This document shows positions 2,249 to 8,160 of a DNA stretch of 15,884 nt, piece after piece. Each line of letters opens with the position of its first letter. Position 1 is the first letter of the stretch. The stretch is taken from NCBI GenBank assembly GCA_013153345.1, contig JAADEQ010000019.1:1-15884 (forward strand), written 5' to 3'. The notes under the pieces are model-generated. The model searched no databases and was not told the DNA's origin. It was given only the letters and a program-made list of their open reading frames with translations. Origin of the DNA: Campylobacterota bacterium. GTDB lineage: Bacteria > Campylobacterota > Campylobacteria > Campylobacterales > Sulfurovaceae. The position numbers and the translations under genes are program-made.

Positions 2249-2836
2249 ATGAGAAAAATGAGAAGAAGAGCTTTAATGGCATTAGCACTTGGAGCGATAA
2301 CTACAGCATCACTTGATGCAAGATGGGGTCACTTTGGTGGCGGACATGGTGGAGGAGGAGTTGCGTATCAGCAAGTAGCAACAACACCTGCAGCAACTCT
2401 TACTCAAAAGCAAAAAGATGATTTGATTTTTATGTATCAAGAGGAGAAACTTGCAAGAGATGTATATATTACCCTTGGAAGAAAGTGGGGTGCAAGAGTA
2501 TTTTTAAATATTCAAAACTCTGAACAAAGACATATGGATGCAGTTAGATATCTCTTAAATAAATATAACTTAAGAGTGCCAGTGTTATCAGATGATATTG
2601 GAGTATTTGAAAATGAAGAGCTTCAAGCTCTATATAATCAACTTGTAGCAAAAGGTTCTCAATCTTTAAGAGATGCACTAGAGGTTGGAGTAACAATTGA
2701 GGAGACCGATATTGCAGATTTAGAAGAGAAGATGGAAGGTGCTCCAGCAGATATTAAGAGTGTCTATAGCAATCTTTTAAGAGGTAGCTATAATCACCTT
2801 AGAGCATTTAAAAGAAACTTGGAGTATCTAAGATGA
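2249..2836 (+). CDS. Exported DUF2202 ferritin-like protein
   Basis: 195 residues. Residues 1-24 form a signal peptide (MRKMRRR, then a hydrophobic core), followed by a Gly/His-rich stretch (RWGHFGGGHGGGG, 25-37). From about 52 to 190 it matches the DUF2202 family of the ferritin-like superfamily: EEKLARDVY (65-73), SEQRHMDAV (91-99), GSQSLRDALEVGVTIEE (136-152), TDIADLEE, and GSYNHLRAF (179-187). Candidate diiron ligands are Glu65/66, Glu92 and His95 (ExxH), Glu151/152 and His183. Family members are uncharacterised; metal binding or oxidant handling in the periplasm is inferred from fold and export. ATG 2249 is supported by AAAAGGAG 7 nt upstream. Its stop overlaps the next start in an ATGA, so the two are cotranscribed and translationally coupled. 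Confidence 0.88.
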   Translation: MRKMRRRALMALALGAITTASLDARWGHFGGGHGGGGVAYQQVATTPAATLTQKQKDDLIFMYQEEKLARDVYITLGRKWGARVFLNIQNSEQRHMDAVRYLLNKYNLRVPVLSDDIGVFENEELQALYNQLVAKGSQSLRDALEVGVTIEETDIADLEEKMEGAPADIKSVYSNLLRGSYNHLRAFKRNLEYLR

Positions 2837-3558
2837 GATTAATCTCTAAAGCGGCATCTATTGCCGCTGTTGCTATTTTAGTTGGTTGTGGCGGAGGCGG
2901 AGGCAATGGCCCAGTAGTTATAGGAGATGATGAAAACTTCTATCAAGGGGCTCCTAATGTCTATGCCTATCCACAATATGAGCTAACTCAACAAAATAAG
3001 GATGATTTAGCTTTTATGGGAAATGAAGAGAGATTAGCCTATGATTTATATACCTATTTATATAATTACCACTTAACCAATAGCAATACTGAGATAAGGC
3101 AGCTAAGTAATATTGCAAATCAAAGTGAAACTACTCATATTAAAGTGGTAAGAGATTTAGTAAATAAGTATGAGATTGAGCCAGATGAGTTAACTATTAT
3201 TGGAGAGCCAGTTGCATCTAGAACCACTCCACAAGATGAATTACCAGCTGGAAAATATGATGTGGAGCATGTTCAAGAGTTATATGATGCGTTAGAGGAT
3301 AAAGGTAAGCAGTCAGTAAGAGATGCACTTGAAGTTGGATGTATGGTAGAAGTTACTGATATTAATGATTTAAATCCTAAAATTGATGCAGCAAATGCTT
3401 CTGGTGCTAAAGATTTAGTAGAGGCATTTGAGTTTTTAAGAGCTGGAAGTTATAATCACTACTGGGCTTTTGATAGAGGCCTAAAGAGTTTGGGTATTAG
3501 TGATGGCTGTTGCTCGTTGGGAGATGAGTGGTGCCATCCTGAATACCCACAAAGGTAA
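2833..3558 (+). CDS. DUF2202 ferritin-like lipoprotein
   Basis: 241 residues, a paralogue of the preceding gene. The signal peptide ends in a lipobox ILVGC with lipid-modified Cys19, followed by a Gly-rich tether. The DUF2202 domain spans about 52-215: EERLAYDLY (65-73), SETTHIKVV (98-106), GKQSVRDALEVG (158-169), EVTDINDL (173-180) and GSYNHYWAF (205-213). Possible metal ligands are Glu65/66, Glu99, His102, Glu173 and His209. It is longer than its neighbour through an insert at about 115-142 and a C-terminal tail holding three cysteines (C226, C227, C234, in CCSLGDEWC), which may form disulfides or bind metal. The start overlaps the upstream stop (ATGA, 2833-2836). The pairing of a soluble and an anchored paralogue suggests a two-part periplasmic device. 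Confidence 0.88.
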   Translation: MRLISKAASIAAVAILVGCGGGGGNGPVVIGDDENFYQGAPNVYAYPQYELTQQNKDDLAFMGNEERLAYDLYTYLYNYHLTNSNTEIRQLSNIANQSETTHIKVVRDLVNKYEIEPDELTIIGEPVASRTTPQDELPAGKYDVEHVQELYDALEDKGKQSVRDALEVGCMVEVTDINDLNPKIDAANASGAKDLVEAFEFLRAGSYNHYWAFDRGLKSLGISDGCCSLGDEWCHPEYPQR

Positions 3559-3805: not shown

Positions 3806-4210
3806 ATGAAAAAGCTACTGCTTTTAATAGGGATTACAACTTTTGCTTTTTCAAATGAGGTTATAGATAAATATTTAAAAGAGCTAGAGGCACAAGTAAA
3901 AGCGCAAGAGCCAGATTTTAAAGGTTTTAGTGCCAAAAGAGGAAAAGAGATTTTTTTCTCCACTCATATTGGAAAGAGAGGGAAAGAGATATCGTGTGCG
4001 AGTTGTCATACAAAGGATTTAACAAAACCCGGAGAGAATATATTTACTGGGAAAAAGATTGAGCCACTCTCTCCAAAAGTAAATCCCAAAAGATTAACAG
4101 ATTTAAAAAAGGTAAAAAAATGGTTAAGGAGAAACTTTAAGGATGTATATAAAAGAGATGGCACCCCAAAAGAGAAAGGGGATGTGTTGATGTTTATTTT
4201 AGAAAATTAA
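3806..4210 (+). CDS. DUF1924 / SHP-like periplasmic monoheme cytochrome c
   Basis: 134 residues: signal peptide MKKLLLLIGITTFAFS, then a DUF1924 domain over the whole mature protein. Visible are FSAKRGKEIFFSTHIGKRGK, the heme-c site C64-x-x-C67-H68, KKIEPLSPKVNPKRLTD, KVKKWLRRNFKDVYKRDGT and PKEKGDVLMFIL. This matches the sphaeroides heme protein (SHP) group, whose heme iron carries His and a displaceable Asn and binds O2 or other small ligands. Asn110 (RRNF) is the likely counterpart. The Cys pair that many relatives carry around this loop is absent. First gene of a tight operon: 10 nt to the next start. SHP normally receives electrons from DHC, encoded here at 6029. Confidence 0.85.
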   Translation: MKKLLLLIGITTFAFSNEVIDKYLKELEAQVKAQEPDFKGFSAKRGKEIFFSTHIGKRGKEISCASCHTKDLTKPGENIFTGKKIEPLSPKVNPKRLTDLKKVKKWLRRNFKDVYKRDGTPKEKGDVLMFILEN

Positions 4211-4220
4211 AGGAGAGAGT

Positions 4221-4628
4221 ATGGAAAAAAGAGTAGTACTATTTGGTTTAGTAGCAGTTTTAATGAGTGGATGTGGAGGTGGAGATAGTACAACTACAAC
4301 AACCACTACTACCTCTACATCAGTTACTCCAACCTCATTACCAACTAGCTTTGTGCCAAATGATGGAAGGCTTTTAGCATCAAATTGTTATGGATGTCAT
4401 GGAACAGATGGAGTCTCAACTACTAAGTGGGATTCAATTGCTGGAGAGGATGAGCTTCATGAGGAGATGTTTGAGAGTGATGGAATAATGCTTGCTCAAG
4501 CAAAGGGGTATAGTGATGATGAGATTGCTAAGATGGAAGAGTTTTTAAAGAGTTTGCCAAAAAGCGATAGTGATGATGACGATAGCTATGATAGTGACGA
4601 TAGTTATGACGATGACGATGATGATTAA
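4221..4628 (+). CDS. Monoheme cytochrome c lipoprotein, FccA-like, with Asp-rich tail
   Basis: 135 residues. The lipobox LMSGC gives lipid-modified Cys18. A Thr/Ser-rich tether follows (eight consecutive Thr at 24-31), then a class I cytochrome domain of about 65 residues: LLASNCYGCHGTDGVS with C56-x-x-C59-H60, and IMLAQAKGYSDDEIAKMEEFL, where Met90 is the probable sixth ligand. The AKGYSDDEI pattern is that of the cytochrome subunit of flavocytochrome c sulfide dehydrogenase. The C-terminus (115-135) is almost only Asp with some Ser and Tyr, encoded by a GAY-rich repeat; this is unusual for FccA and could bind cations or an electropositive partner. It lies 15 nt before the FccB-like gene, which supports pairing. 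RBS GGAGAG. Confidence 0.8.
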   Translation: MEKRVVLFGLVAVLMSGCGGGDSTTTTTTTTSTSVTPTSLPTSFVPNDGRLLASNCYGCHGTDGVSTTKWDSIAGEDELHEEMFESDGIMLAQAKGYSDDEIAKMEEFLKSLPKSDSDDDDSYDSDDSYDDDDDD

Positions 4629-4643
4629 GAAAGGAGAGAGAGT

Positions 4644-5882
4644 ATGAAAAGAAGAGATTTTTTTAAACTAATAGGAGTTGGAACAGGAATCTTTTTTGCT
4701 CCATCTATATTAAAAGCAGGTACTACCCCTCCTCGAGTTGTTATTGTTGGTGGAGGATATAGTGGAAGGAGTGCTGCAAAATATTTAAAGAAGTGGGGAG
4801 GAAGTAGTATAGATGTAACTTTAATAGATAAAGATAGTATCTATACATCTCCAATATTGAGTAATTTAGTATTAAATAATCAAAAGACAATTTCTCAATT
4901 GCAGTTTGATTACTCAGCTATAACCTCAAATTATGGAGTAAAATATATTAATGGAGAGGTTAGCTCTATTGATAAAGATAATAAAAAGGTTATATTAAAA
5001 GATGGTTCAATATTTGAGTATGATAAGTTGATTTTAGCAACGGGAATTGATTTTATAAAGAGTAATGATTATGATTTTAATATAGTGCCACATGCTTGGA
5101 TTGCAGGGGAGCAGACTACTCTTTTAAAATCAAAAATCGATAGTTTACAAAGTGGAGATAGATTTATTTTAACTATTCCAAAATCTCCTTATAGATGTCC
5201 TCCAGGCCCATATGAGAGAGCATGTGTGGTAGCAGACTATTTAAAGAATATAAGAGGAGTAGATGTTGAGATAGTAGTGTTGGATGAGAATAGTGATTTT
5301 GTTGTAGAGAAAGATAGTTTTGAGCCAGCATTTAGTAGATATGGAATTAAGTATTATCCAAATTCAAAAGTTATTAATGTAGATGATTCTAATATGGTTT
5401 TAAAATATGAAGAGAGCGGAGTTTTAAAGGAGTTATCAGCAAGAGTAATAAATGTAATCCCAAATCAAAAGGCACCAGCTTTACTAATAGATAGTGGGCT
5501 TTGTGATGAGACAAACTTTGCGCCAGTAAAACTAATTAATTATGAGTCTTTGATAGTAAAAGATATTCATATTATAGGAGATTCTCATAAAAGTACTCAA
5601 CCAAAAGCGGGCCATATTGCAAATGTGGAGGCAAAGGTTTGTGCAGATGCTATTTTACGGGAGCTAAATGGGTATGAGTTATATCCAAAGCCAAAGACAA
5701 ATTCAGCTTGCTACTCTCCGCTATCTAGCTCAACAGCTACGTGGTTAACGGCTGTATATGAGTATGATGCAGCTACTAATTCGATGATAACTATAAGCAA
5801 AGATGCTGGTAGTGAGAGTAGCAGCAACTATGAAGAGATGTTTAACTGGAGTGGAAATCTATTTAGCGACACTTTTAGTTAA
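4644..5882 (+). CDS. fccB: FccB-type flavoprotein (flavocytochrome c / sulfide dehydrogenase FAD subunit)
   Basis: 412 residues. The N-terminus MKRRDFFKLIG is a twin-arginine signal, so the FAD protein is exported folded. The Rossmann motif VVIVGGGYSGRSAAKYL lies at 32-48 and the second FAD motif IIGDSHKSTQPKAGHIAN at 310-327. Two family cysteines are present: C185 in SPYRCPPGPYERAC and C356 in SACYSP, which match the redox-active disulfide that attacks sulfide in FccB. A C-terminal W-x-x-N-x-x-x-D-x-F pattern (402-411) is also typical. The reaction would be sulfide oxidation to sulfur or polysulfide with electrons passed to cytochrome c, here the lipoprotein at 4221. SoxF-type function is an alternative. 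RBS GGAGAG upstream; last gene before the terminator at 5906. Confidence 0.88.
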   Translation: MKRRDFFKLIGVGTGIFFAPSILKAGTTPPRVVIVGGGYSGRSAAKYLKKWGGSSIDVTLIDKDSIYTSPILSNLVLNNQKTISQLQFDYSAITSNYGVKYINGEVSSIDKDNKKVILKDGSIFEYDKLILATGIDFIKSNDYDFNIVPHAWIAGEQTTLLKSKIDSLQSGDRFILTIPKSPYRCPPGPYERACVVADYLKNIRGVDVEIVVLDENSDFVVEKDSFEPAFSRYGIKYYPNSKVINVDDSNMVLKYEESGVLKELSARVINVIPNQKAPALLIDSGLCDETNFAPVKLINYESLIVKDIHIIGDSHKSTQPKAGHIANVEAKVCADAILRELNGYELYPKPKTNSACYSPLSSSTATWLTAVYEYDAATNSMITISKDAGSESSSNYEEMFNWSGNLFSDTFS

Positions 5883-6028: not shown

Positions 6029-6646
6029 ATGAAAAAGATAGCTTTAGTTACTGCTTTAGCATTTATGTTTGGAGCATATTTATATGGTGATGAGGATGAA
6101 AGAGAGTATGAGTATAAGAAAAAATATGAAAAGGAGTATAGAAAATATAAAAAAGAGGATGAGGAGTATAAGTATAAAAAGATGGGTTGGCTCTCTACTT
6201 CTGAGGATACTAAAGCAGCAAAACTCTATAAGCAAGAGTGTGGAAGCTGCCATATGGCATATCAGGCTGAGTTTTTACCAAAAAGGAGCTGGAAAAAGTT
6301 AATGGAGCCAAAATCTTTGGAGGACCATTTTGGGGTTGATGCTACTTTGGATGAAGAAGATAGAAGAGTTATATTAGAGTTTTTATTAAAACATGCTGGG
6401 GATGCTAAGAGGGTTTATGGGGAGTATAAAGAGTTTATAGAGAGTATAAGAAAAGATTCAACTCCTTTAAGAATTAGTGAGGTTCCATATTTTAAAAAAG
6501 AGCATAAAAAGATTCCAAAAAAATATATTAAACAAAAAGAGGTAAAGACAATTGCAAATTGTATAGCGTGTCATAAAGATGCACAAGAGGGAATATATGA
6601 TGAGGATAATATCTTTATTCCAAATTATGGAAAGTGGGATGATTAA
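6029..6646 (+). CDS. Periplasmic diheme cytochrome c (DHC family)
   Basis: 205 residues. Signal peptide 1-19 (MKKIALVTALAFMFGAYLY). Residues 21-52 are an unusual Glu/Lys/Tyr/Asp-only stretch, probably disordered or helical. The DHC domain follows with heme site 1 C71-x-x-C74-H75 (ECGSCHMAYQ), the family signature LPKRSWKKLMEP and DHFGVDATLDEE (His100 a likely axial ligand), VPYFKKEHKKIP, then heme site 2 C178-x-x-C181-H182 (NCIACH). Known DHC proteins have bis-His hemes and reduce SHP; the SHP-like gene is 2 kb upstream. The next gene starts 10 nt downstream and carries a close copy of this domain. RBS AAGGAG. Confidence 0.88.
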   Translation: MKKIALVTALAFMFGAYLYGDEDEREYEYKKKYEKEYRKYKKEDEEYKYKKMGWLSTSEDTKAAKLYKQECGSCHMAYQAEFLPKRSWKKLMEPKSLEDHFGVDATLDEEDRRVILEFLLKHAGDAKRVYGEYKEFIESIRKDSTPLRISEVPYFKKEHKKIPKKYIKQKEVKTIANCIACHKDAQEGIYDEDNIFIPNYGKWDD

Positions 6647-6656
6647 AGGAGATAAG

Positions 6657-7595
6657 ATGAAGAGATATGTTTGGAGCTTACCAACTAGATTATTTCACTG
6701 GCTATTGGTGCTTTTTATTGTGGGGGCCTATTTGGCTTCTGAAGAGGAGAATCTTTTAAGAATCCATACAGCTTTTGGGTATGGGGTTGGAGTATTGGTG
6801 ATATTTAGAATAATCTGGGGCTTTATTGGTCCGAAATATTCAAGATTTAGTGATTTTCCATTAAGTATTAAGGAGGCAATTGAGTATATTAAAAATATTT
6901 TTCATCCAAAAAAGAAGTATATTGGTCATAACCCAGCAGCCTCTTTTGTTATGTTAGGAATTATTATTACTCTATTTTTTGTGGTAGTAAGTGGAGTCTT
7001 AACTTATGGAATCCAAGAGGGAAGAGGAGTTTTGGCCTTTTTAAATAACTCTTTATTTAGGGAGATGGAGGTTTTTGAGGAGCTTCATGAGGTGTTTGTC
7101 TCAATTTTGCTATTTTTAATTGCTCTTCATTTAGCAGGAGTTGCAACTGATTATATTTTGCATAAAGAAGATGGCACTATTGCTTCTATATTTACTGGCT
7201 ATAAAAATATTGAAGGAGAGAGTGTTAAGTTAAATAGTATCCAAAAGATTGTTGCAACTCTATTTTTAGCTGCCTCTATTGGAGTAGTTATTTGGGGATT
7301 TACTCAAGATGCTCCTTTAAATAAATCTATATATGAGGAGATAGAGTATGAGGAGCACTCAAGTTTATTTGTAGAGGAGTGTGGAGCTTGCCACACCCTC
7401 TATCCTCCACATCTATTGCCAAAGAGAAGTTGGGTGAAGTTAATGGAGCCAAAGGCACTGCAAAACCACTTTGGGGATGATGCCTCTTTGGATGAGGAGA
7501 GTAGAGTAGAGATTGAGAAGTTTTTGGTTGCAAATAGTGCTGAGAGCTCTACAAAAGAGGCTGCAGTTTATATCTTAAAGAGTCTAAAAGATTAG
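6657..7595 (+). CDS. Cytochrome b561 fused to a DHC-like diheme module, cut short by in-frame TAG
   Basis: 312 residues to the stop. ATG 6657 (MKRYVWSLPTRLFHW) is chosen because AAAGGAGAT lies just upstream; a longer reading from 6579 would run through the DHC gene. Residues 1-215 are a cytochrome b561-type membrane domain with heme-ligand candidates His14, His37, His144 and His158, plus one further transmembrane segment at about 195-213. From 235 comes the first half of a DHC domain: C242-x-x-C245-H246, LLPKRSWVKLMEPKAL, NHFGDDASLDEE. About half the positions of this half are identical to the DHC encoded upstream. The reading frame then meets TAG at 7593 (codon 313), but the same frame continues for 59 codons encoding the second heme half. 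The product would be a quinol-linked electron donor to periplasmic cytochromes, now lacking its last heme unless the stop is read through. Confidence 0.85.
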   Translation: MKRYVWSLPTRLFHWLLVLFIVGAYLASEEENLLRIHTAFGYGVGVLVIFRIIWGFIGPKYSRFSDFPLSIKEAIEYIKNIFHPKKKYIGHNPAASFVMLGIIITLFFVVVSGVLTYGIQEGRGVLAFLNNSLFREMEVFEELHEVFVSILLFLIALHLAGVATDYILHKEDGTIASIFTGYKNIEGESVKLNSIQKIVATLFLAASIGVVIWGFTQDAPLNKSIYEEIEYEEHSSLFVEECGACHTLYPPHLLPKRSWVKLMEPKALQNHFGDDASLDEESRVEIEKFLVANSAESSTKEAAVYILKSLKD

Positions 7596-7775
7596 CCCAA
7601 AAATGATATAATAGCAATTACTAAAACCCCATACTGGAAAGAGAAGCATAAAAGCATCTCTAAAGAGATTTTTAGCTCTTCAAAGGTAAAATCTAAAGCC
7701 AATTGCAAAGCGTGTCATAGCGATATAGAAAAGGGGTTAATAGAGGATGAGAATATAAAGATACCAGAGGAGTAG
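7596..7775 (+). pseudogene. Second-heme half of the b561-DHC fusion, downstream of the in-frame TAG
   Basis: Same frame as the preceding gene, 59 codons from 7596 to a second TAG at 7773-7775, with no internal stop, no ATG and no RBS of its own. It encodes TKTPYWKEKHKSI and ANCKACHSDIEKGL, with C350-x-x-C353-H354 in fusion numbering. These match VPYFKKEHKKIP and ANCIACHKDAQEG of the intact DHC. The heme motif and spacing are well kept, so the stop is recent, a sequencing error, or read through. The RBS of the next gene lies in its last codons, as expected if it was the true 3' end of a coupled gene. Confidence 0.8.
7607..7612 (+). promoter_or_regulatory. Possible internal extended -10 promoter for the Spy/CpxP-like gene
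   Basis: TGATATAAT directly after the premature stop matches the promoter seen at 10191-10199. It would give a start near 7619 and a leader of about 158 nt before ATG 7777. It may be chance in AT-rich coding sequence (Asp-Ile-Ile codons). Confidence 0.3.
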
Positions 7776-7776
7776 T

Positions 7777-8160
7777 ATGAAGCGATTAATTTTAATCTTC
7801 TTAACTCTTTTTTTATTTGCTGATGATAGAGATTATTATAAAAAAGAGATTCATCTCCCTAAAGATTTGAGTTTTTTGGATTTAAACTCTACTCAAAAAA
7901 AACTTCTTACTAAGCTTTTGCTTGAGCATCGTAAAAAGTTAAAAGAGCTTCATGATGAAGAGGAGGAGTGGGAGGAGGGATTGAAGGTGGATTTTATAAA
8001 GGATGATTTTGATAAAGATGATTTTATTGAGAAGAATTTGGAGTTTAAAAAGAAGATTGTGGAGGTGGAGGCTAACTTTTTTGAAAAGATTCACTCAATC
8101 TTAAATAAGAAGCAGAGAAAAAAGTTTATTGAGTATATTGAGGAGTGGGAGATTGAATAG
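7777..8160 (+). CDS. Spy/CpxP-like periplasmic protein
   Basis: 127 residues: signal peptide MKRLILIFLTLFLFA, then a highly charged all-helical mature part. Two LTxxQ-type motifs are visible, LNSTQ (36-40) at the start of the first long helix and LNKKQR (109-114) near the end, with about 70 residues between them. This matches the Spy/CpxP/ZraP group in size and layout. These proteins act as periplasmic chaperones or as brakes on sensor kinases of the Cpx type. The gene follows the diheme remnant by 1 nt, with AGAGGAG of the preceding codons as RBS, so it belongs to the DHC-cytochrome b operon. The CpxR-like repeats upstream of the operon make a stress-response role attractive. Sequence similarity is loose, so family assignment is tentative. 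Confidence 0.65.
   Translation: MKRLILIFLTLFLFADDRDYYKKEIHLPKDLSFLDLNSTQKKLLTKLLLEHRKKLKELHDEEEEWEEGLKVDFIKDDFDKDDFIEKNLEFKKKIVEVEANFFEKIHSILNKKQRKKFIEYIEEWEIE

Follow-up and report, generated by a model that had tools for sequence, protein, structure and literature searches.

The SHP gene cluster and its interrupted cytochrome gene

The window is a stretch of 15,884 nucleotides from a Campylobacterota bacterium (Sulfurovaceae). It is a whole contig of a 1.03 Mb (1,025 kb) assembly, which consists of 161 contigs and is 82.55% complete. A gene cluster of the SHP operon type was found in it, with the following features:

3806..4210, + strand: SHP-like monoheme c-type protein (DUF1924; PF09086; PDB 1dw0, 1e8e)
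4221..4628, + strand: small c-type cytochrome adjoining the flavoprotein gene (weak Cytochrom_C/CBB3 matches)
4644..5882, + strand: FCSD-type sulfide dehydrogenase flavoprotein (PF21706, 4.7e-26)
6029..6646, + strand: sDHC, a soluble diheme cytochrome c, intact (PF09626 over its full length; PDB 3u99, 2fw5, 2fwt)
6657..7595, + strand: CytB (cytochrome b561) with the heme-1 half of mDHC, ending at a premature TAG (PF01292, PF09626 positions 2-62, homologues)
7593..7595, + strand: in-frame TAG between c-heme 1 and c-heme 2, in a linker of variable length (translation, alignment)
7596..7775, + strand: second DHC half with the second CxxCH, 59 open codons and the native stop (PF09626 positions 74-114)
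7777..8160, + strand: small protein downstream of CytB/mDHC, starting 1 nt past the native stop (neighbourhood conservation)

The structure entry 1dw0 is itself named cytochrome c, and we take it to be SHP. The gene starting at 6657 is the CytB/mDHC chimera of the SHP operon. The other genes of the operon have intact open reading frames in the window, and two adjoining DUF2202 genes (2249-3558) were observed upstream of the cluster.

SHP, DHC, the fused gene and the small protein occur together in 16 of 18 relative records, with L016 and L017 as the exceptions. These records represent 17 distinct places, as L078 lies within L123, and the gene is frame-split in L009. The small protein adjoins the gene in 16 of the 18 records (15 of the 17 distinct places), and this position directly behind CytB/mDHC is kept in Campylobacterota. 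The protein had no match above the cut-off in Pfam or NCBIfam, and the only one below it was to LTXXQ (E 0.1). The window (4221-5882) and four of the 18 relative records (L121, L122, L127 and L016) have a small cytochrome c together with an FCSD-type flavoprotein within the SHP/CytB cluster or next to it, at differing positions. The recurrence suggests that the pair may be functionally linked to the cluster.

Translation of the frame from 6657 to 7775 gave 312 residues, the TAG at 7593-7595, 59 sense codons and the native TAG at 7773-7775. A b561 domain was recognized by Pfam upstream of the premature stop (PF01292, 2.6e-26). The DHC profile (PF09626) was matched in two parts, positions 2-62 before the TAG and 74-114 after it (E 6e-10), and because the latter positions match there, the tail at 7596-7775 is no chance open frame. 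The CxxCH motifs lie at residues 242 and 350 and the stop at 313. An earlier note on this DNA had described a b561-DHC fusion split by an in-frame amber codon, with the product ending after the first heme and the second CxxCH lying in 59 stop-free codons; translation and the Pfam matches bear out each of these points. The heme spacing of the tail was compared with that of the intact DHC at 6029 through the shared DHC profile only. Since the second heme lies behind the TAG, a complete diheme DHC is fused in frame only on the condition that the TAG is not real or undergoes readthrough. The membrane histidines of b561, H14, H37, H91, H144 and H158, are all present, and they are conserved in 117-119 of the 119 other homologues listed.

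The listing of open reading frames puts the start of the gene at 6579. Position 6657 is to be preferred: most of the aligned homologues start at this point or only a few residues away, and AAAGGAG precedes it. At the other end, the native stop closes at 7775 and the ATG of the next gene lies at 7777, with GAGGAG ahead of it within the last codons of the tail. The frame indeed ends 1 nt before the next gene and contains its ribosome-binding site, as had been stated.

Two other arrangements were considered and rejected. A separate downstream gene is contradicted by the lack of any in-frame ATG, GTG or TTG within the 59 tail codons and of any + strand ORF of at least 20 aa starting between the TAG and 7777; furthermore, a heme domain without the membrane part would have no export route. 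Ribosome hopping from a GAT to the next GAT over the TAG found no supporting evidence; judged by eye, it would produce a linker shorter than that of the homologues compared.

Distribution of the stop and condition of the tail

The homologue set comprised the best 120 of 1323 matches, one of which is the window's own protein, ending at the TAG. Two CxxCH motifs are present in each of the 119 other homologues listed, so that the alignment proposed in the earlier note revealed both hemes in one protein throughout. The stop column is an alignment gap in 118 of them. The closest among the listed homologues is 76% identical; its linker is as long as that of the window protein, with a sense residue at the stop position. 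The window protein is the sole sequence of its 90% cluster and comes from one contig.

The search of the family covered 175 genomes, of which 43 had a match. The site was spanned by 41 match rows, and the stop was present in the window's only; none of the 40 others shared it at the same position. The arrangement that the earlier note had named as contrary to its reading, with all homologues stopping here and the downstream part forming a separate gene, is contradicted by the 119 listed homologues with both hemes in one protein, by the 40 of 41 family matches that are open across the site and by the lack of a usual start codon in the tail.

The order-wide search covered 398 genomes, at least 137 of which had a match. 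Among the matches listed, one further in-frame stop was observed in G344 (L144), a TAA just before the second heme motif. This homologue is 36% identical and belongs to an incomplete genome, and the position of its TAA differs from that of the window's TAG. In G055, a second CytB/mDHC copy (C1:1744944-1746033) was represented by two matches meeting near residue 105; it could represent a genuine pseudogene or reflect an error of sequencing.

On the - strand of L148 (G210), from 1753, a b561 gene was found whose product is 65% identical to the window's, ends in the acidic stretch EEEDDD and has no DHC. In L016, the match stops at residue 207, ahead of the c part. Natural loss of the c part thus occurs in relatives, L148 lacking DHC. 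The b561 without any c part in L148, together with SHP operons without mDHC, some of which have been described (PMC2909971), would fit the proposal that the one-c-heme protein of the window is a selected form with a tail too young to have decayed. A form with the first c-heme only was seen in no other homologue among the best 120 of 1323, however, and nothing sets such a truncation apart from neutral loss. An adaptive origin is considered very improbable.

The condition of the tail was evaluated by several measures. Identity to the nearest listed homologue (P0002) was 79.7% in the tail, 75.3% before the stop and 0.782 in the heme-1 part. When the 120 sequences were ranked by mean identity of the tail minus that of the heme-1 part, a low rank indicating decay, the window took the 100th place. 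None of the 15 tail positions with at least 95% conservation was changed. On the window's own branch, changes were assigned to 4 of 59 tail positions versus 31 of 312 before the stop, and 4 further tail differences were not assignable to a branch. In simulated neutral drift, the probability of acquiring no stop and keeping all 15 residues was 0.40 at 0.02 substitutions per site, 0.10 at 0.05 and 0.026 at 0.08.

The relaxed constraint expected after the stop of a decayed pseudogene was found neither in the identities nor in the conserved positions nor in the branch changes. These three observations rule out long decay, in line with what the earlier note had argued. A tail without decay leaves three possibilities for the stop, namely a recent origin, an error or readthrough, which are the options named in that note. 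The age of the stop is only loosely bounded because the nearest listed homologue is only 76% identical. An undecayed tail is predicted by readthrough and by error as well.

The +1 frame change in Arcobacter-family genes

Among the matches listed order-wide, those of at least 14 genomes of one family ended at residues 251-255, directly past heme 1, and in all 14 the remainder of the gene was found in the +1 frame. This family, which contains Arcobacter, comprises 104 genomes, at least 69 of them with a match. The +1 frame change right after heme 1 was detected in at least 28 of the 104, and all 28 loci were read (L129-L142 and L209-L222; the family of G043). The shift site ACT_CTN_TAT_CCC_(T/A)CC is present in 28/28, with TCC in 19 and ACC in 9. 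In 27 loci, the 0 frame runs into a stop 14 codons past the codon for the first heme cysteine; in one locus, the distance is 23 codons. In every case, the +1 part encodes 108-122 residues with one CxxCH. A +1 step at CCC restores the YPPxxxP motif of the intact relatives, as seen in 14 of the loci. CCC was found at the equivalent codon in none of the 18 intact family members examined, and it accounts for 12 of 126 proline codons elsewhere in 14 of the frame-split genes.

The ratio dN/dS was determined by simple counting, many pairs having a high dS. The median for the frame-split genes was 0.280 after the shift (range 0.068-0.596) and 0.276 before it (331 of 378 pairs with usable dS); the corresponding medians for the intact relatives were 0.255 and 0.240 (116 of 153 pairs). 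Judged by these ratios, the sequence after the shift is under purifying selection, which favours decoding over decay. Pairwise identities among 14 of the loci go down as far as 0.55 before the shift and 0.61 after it, so the frame-split state is old. Shifted and intact genes are intermingled in the tree, with nine changes of state, at least seven of them forced by well-supported branches; the tree is midpoint-rooted and several long branches leave parts of it unsure. The pattern is compatible with an old shift that was lost repeatedly, and some of the changes could be gains. Repeated loss of an old frameshift has been described for prfB (PMC12421855).

A database search with the 0-frame product of G043 was inspected for its best 120 of 376 matches. 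Of these, 118 were absent from the homologues listed for the window protein, among them P0121, which is 100% identical. Ninety of the 120 are shorter than 300 aa, and 88 of the 90 end 5-18 residues past a single CxxCH; in 83 of the 90, the motif reads CxxCHTLYP and is followed by S, T or A. The matches include proteins of Aliarcobacter butzleri, A. cibarius, A. cryaerophilus and Poseidonibacter antarcticus, annotated as cytochrome b or cytochrome b/b6 domain-containing protein. In the databases, the protein of the Arcobacter family thus passes for a short cytochrome b, with its diheme half hidden by the conserved frame change. No report of frameshifting in Arcobacter or Aliarcobacter, or of frameshifting with a diheme cytochrome, was found in the open-licence PubMed Central literature. 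Neither cytochrome nor Arcobacter appears in the main text of a survey of frame transitions (PMC3711429). A. butzleri is counted among the species with the chimera in PMC2909971, in which the word "frameshift" is absent.

The genome of G043 (one contig, 100% complete) was used to look at proline decoding. All 49 of its 49 tRNA matches were covered, and proline has a single tRNA among them, with the anticodon UGG. This tRNA would decode CCC through wobble and could then re-pair one base on, at CCA or CCT. Based on the sequence comparisons, programmed +1 ribosomal frameshifting is a highly probable explanation for the conserved frame change in the Arcobacter-family species. At least six of the 28 genomes (G491, G506, G516, G551, G552 and G560) possess a second CytB/mDHC copy that is open over its full length and shares 33-47% identity with the query, so the shifted copy is possibly not the sole source of the diheme form. 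If confirmed, +1 slippage at CCC would here serve to decode a respiratory gene of cells, an arrangement retained in many species and apparently lost several times. It would also offer a natural system for studying why a cell would use frameshifting to fix the proportions in which two forms of an electron-transfer protein are made.

Explanations of the TAG

The way in which the host reads TAG was evaluated in a 124.8 kb sample of the 1,025 kb assembly. TAG ends 39 of 115 non-overlapping ORFs of at least 100 aa, and RF1 is present in the genome; together, these findings rule out a genome-wide reassignment of TAG. No CUA anticodon was found among 32 tRNA matches, all of them covered, in this 82.55% complete genome. 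No notable RNA structure was detected after the TAG (z -0.94).

The same sample was screened for in-frame stops followed by open frame. At least 45 open codons lie behind the stop in 11 of the 115 ORFs, and in eight cases the tail runs into a further ORF of the sample. This leaves three, namely the window gene, an ORF with its tail over tRNA genes and one with an endonuclease-like tail, presumably a separate endonuclease gene. The window gene is hence the sole otherwise unexplained open-tail ORF among the 115. As far as in-frame stops can tell, the assembly is not generally error-ridden, because only this ORF is unexplained and the operon is otherwise open. This speaks against a consensus or assembly error, which would make the TAG unreal and leave the full 372-residue protein encoded. 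Such an error is favoured by the nature of the source, a MAG of 161 contigs and 82.55% completeness, by the undecayed tail and by the restriction of the stop to a single assembly, where the protein is alone in its 90% cluster. An error is regarded as unlikely, although it ranks second to the nonsense change and ahead of readthrough and adaptive truncation.

Functional readthrough of a leaky TAG would yield b561 products with one and with two c-hemes at a set ratio. The apparent constraint on the tail is in agreement with it, and the location of the stop in a variable linker should make any inserted residue tolerable. The conserved +1 frameshift of the Arcobacter-family relatives, in the same gene family, offers a parallel and shows that the region between the two c-hemes can be a site of translational control. 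It does not make readthrough of the TAG likely, however, because the sites differ (residue 250 versus 313) and the window gene is in frame at 250. In addition, the stop occurs in none of the 40 other site-spanning family matches, no notable structure follows it, and the genome has RF1 but, among its 32 tRNA matches, no reader of UAG. Functional readthrough of the window's TAG is therefore unlikely. A wider proposal is that the c-heme part is under recoding control in Campylobacterota, through +1 slippage at CCC in the Arcobacter family and, independently, through TAG readthrough. If true, one mRNA would give b561-only or one-c-heme forms and the full diheme form in a tunable ratio. This combined proposal is unlikely.

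The best reading of the TAG is a nonsense change that arose recently, is either fixed or polymorphic, and deprives the protein of its last heme (probability roughly 0.6). In its favour are the isolation of the stop, the undecayed tail, the use of TAG as an ordinary stop in this genome and the tolerated loss of the c part in relatives. CytB/mDHC would carry electrons from quinol through two b hemes and two c hemes to sDHC and SHP, which follows the path quinol - CytB - mDHC/sDHC - SHP proposed for these operons (PMC2909971). A sense codon of the linker between the c-hemes would recently have turned to TAG in the sequenced population, and ribosomes would terminate there. The predicted truncated product would retain the b561 part, c-heme 1 (C242, C245 and H246) and the conserved H271; it would lack the second heme site (C350, C353 and H354) and the conserved H331. 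Traces of the full-length protein may arise from background suppression. The lesion would be tolerable for a while because the separate sDHC and SHP are intact, and these probably keep electrons flowing at reduced capacity. Taken alone, the TAG is probably just another nonsense change of recent date and of little consequence.

The gene resembles the CytB/mDHC chimera described for SHP operons (PMC2909971) in that b561 is fused to a diheme DHC, with sDHC and SHP in the cluster. In contrast to that chimera, its frame is cut by a TAG between the two c-hemes, and the cluster differs from the operons described there by containing an FCSD flavoprotein and a small cytochrome c. The isolated in-frame stop, in a gene that still resembles constrained coding sequence, recalls the in-frame stop genes of PMC7918605, where such stops are reported to be widespread in bacteria and to tend to be short-lived. 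Orthologous stops in at least two species were required in that work, whereas the stop of the window was found in one sequence and no shared one was detected. As regards the Arcobacter-family frame change, the closest likeness is with the cps mRNA of Listeria phage PSA, in which a +1 shift takes place at CCC_UCC (PMC5009743), that is, at a CCC proline codon with UCC next. Unlike the phage case, the frame change reported here concerns a cellular respiratory gene in 28 genomes and lies after TAT, with TCC (19) or ACC (9) as the following codon.
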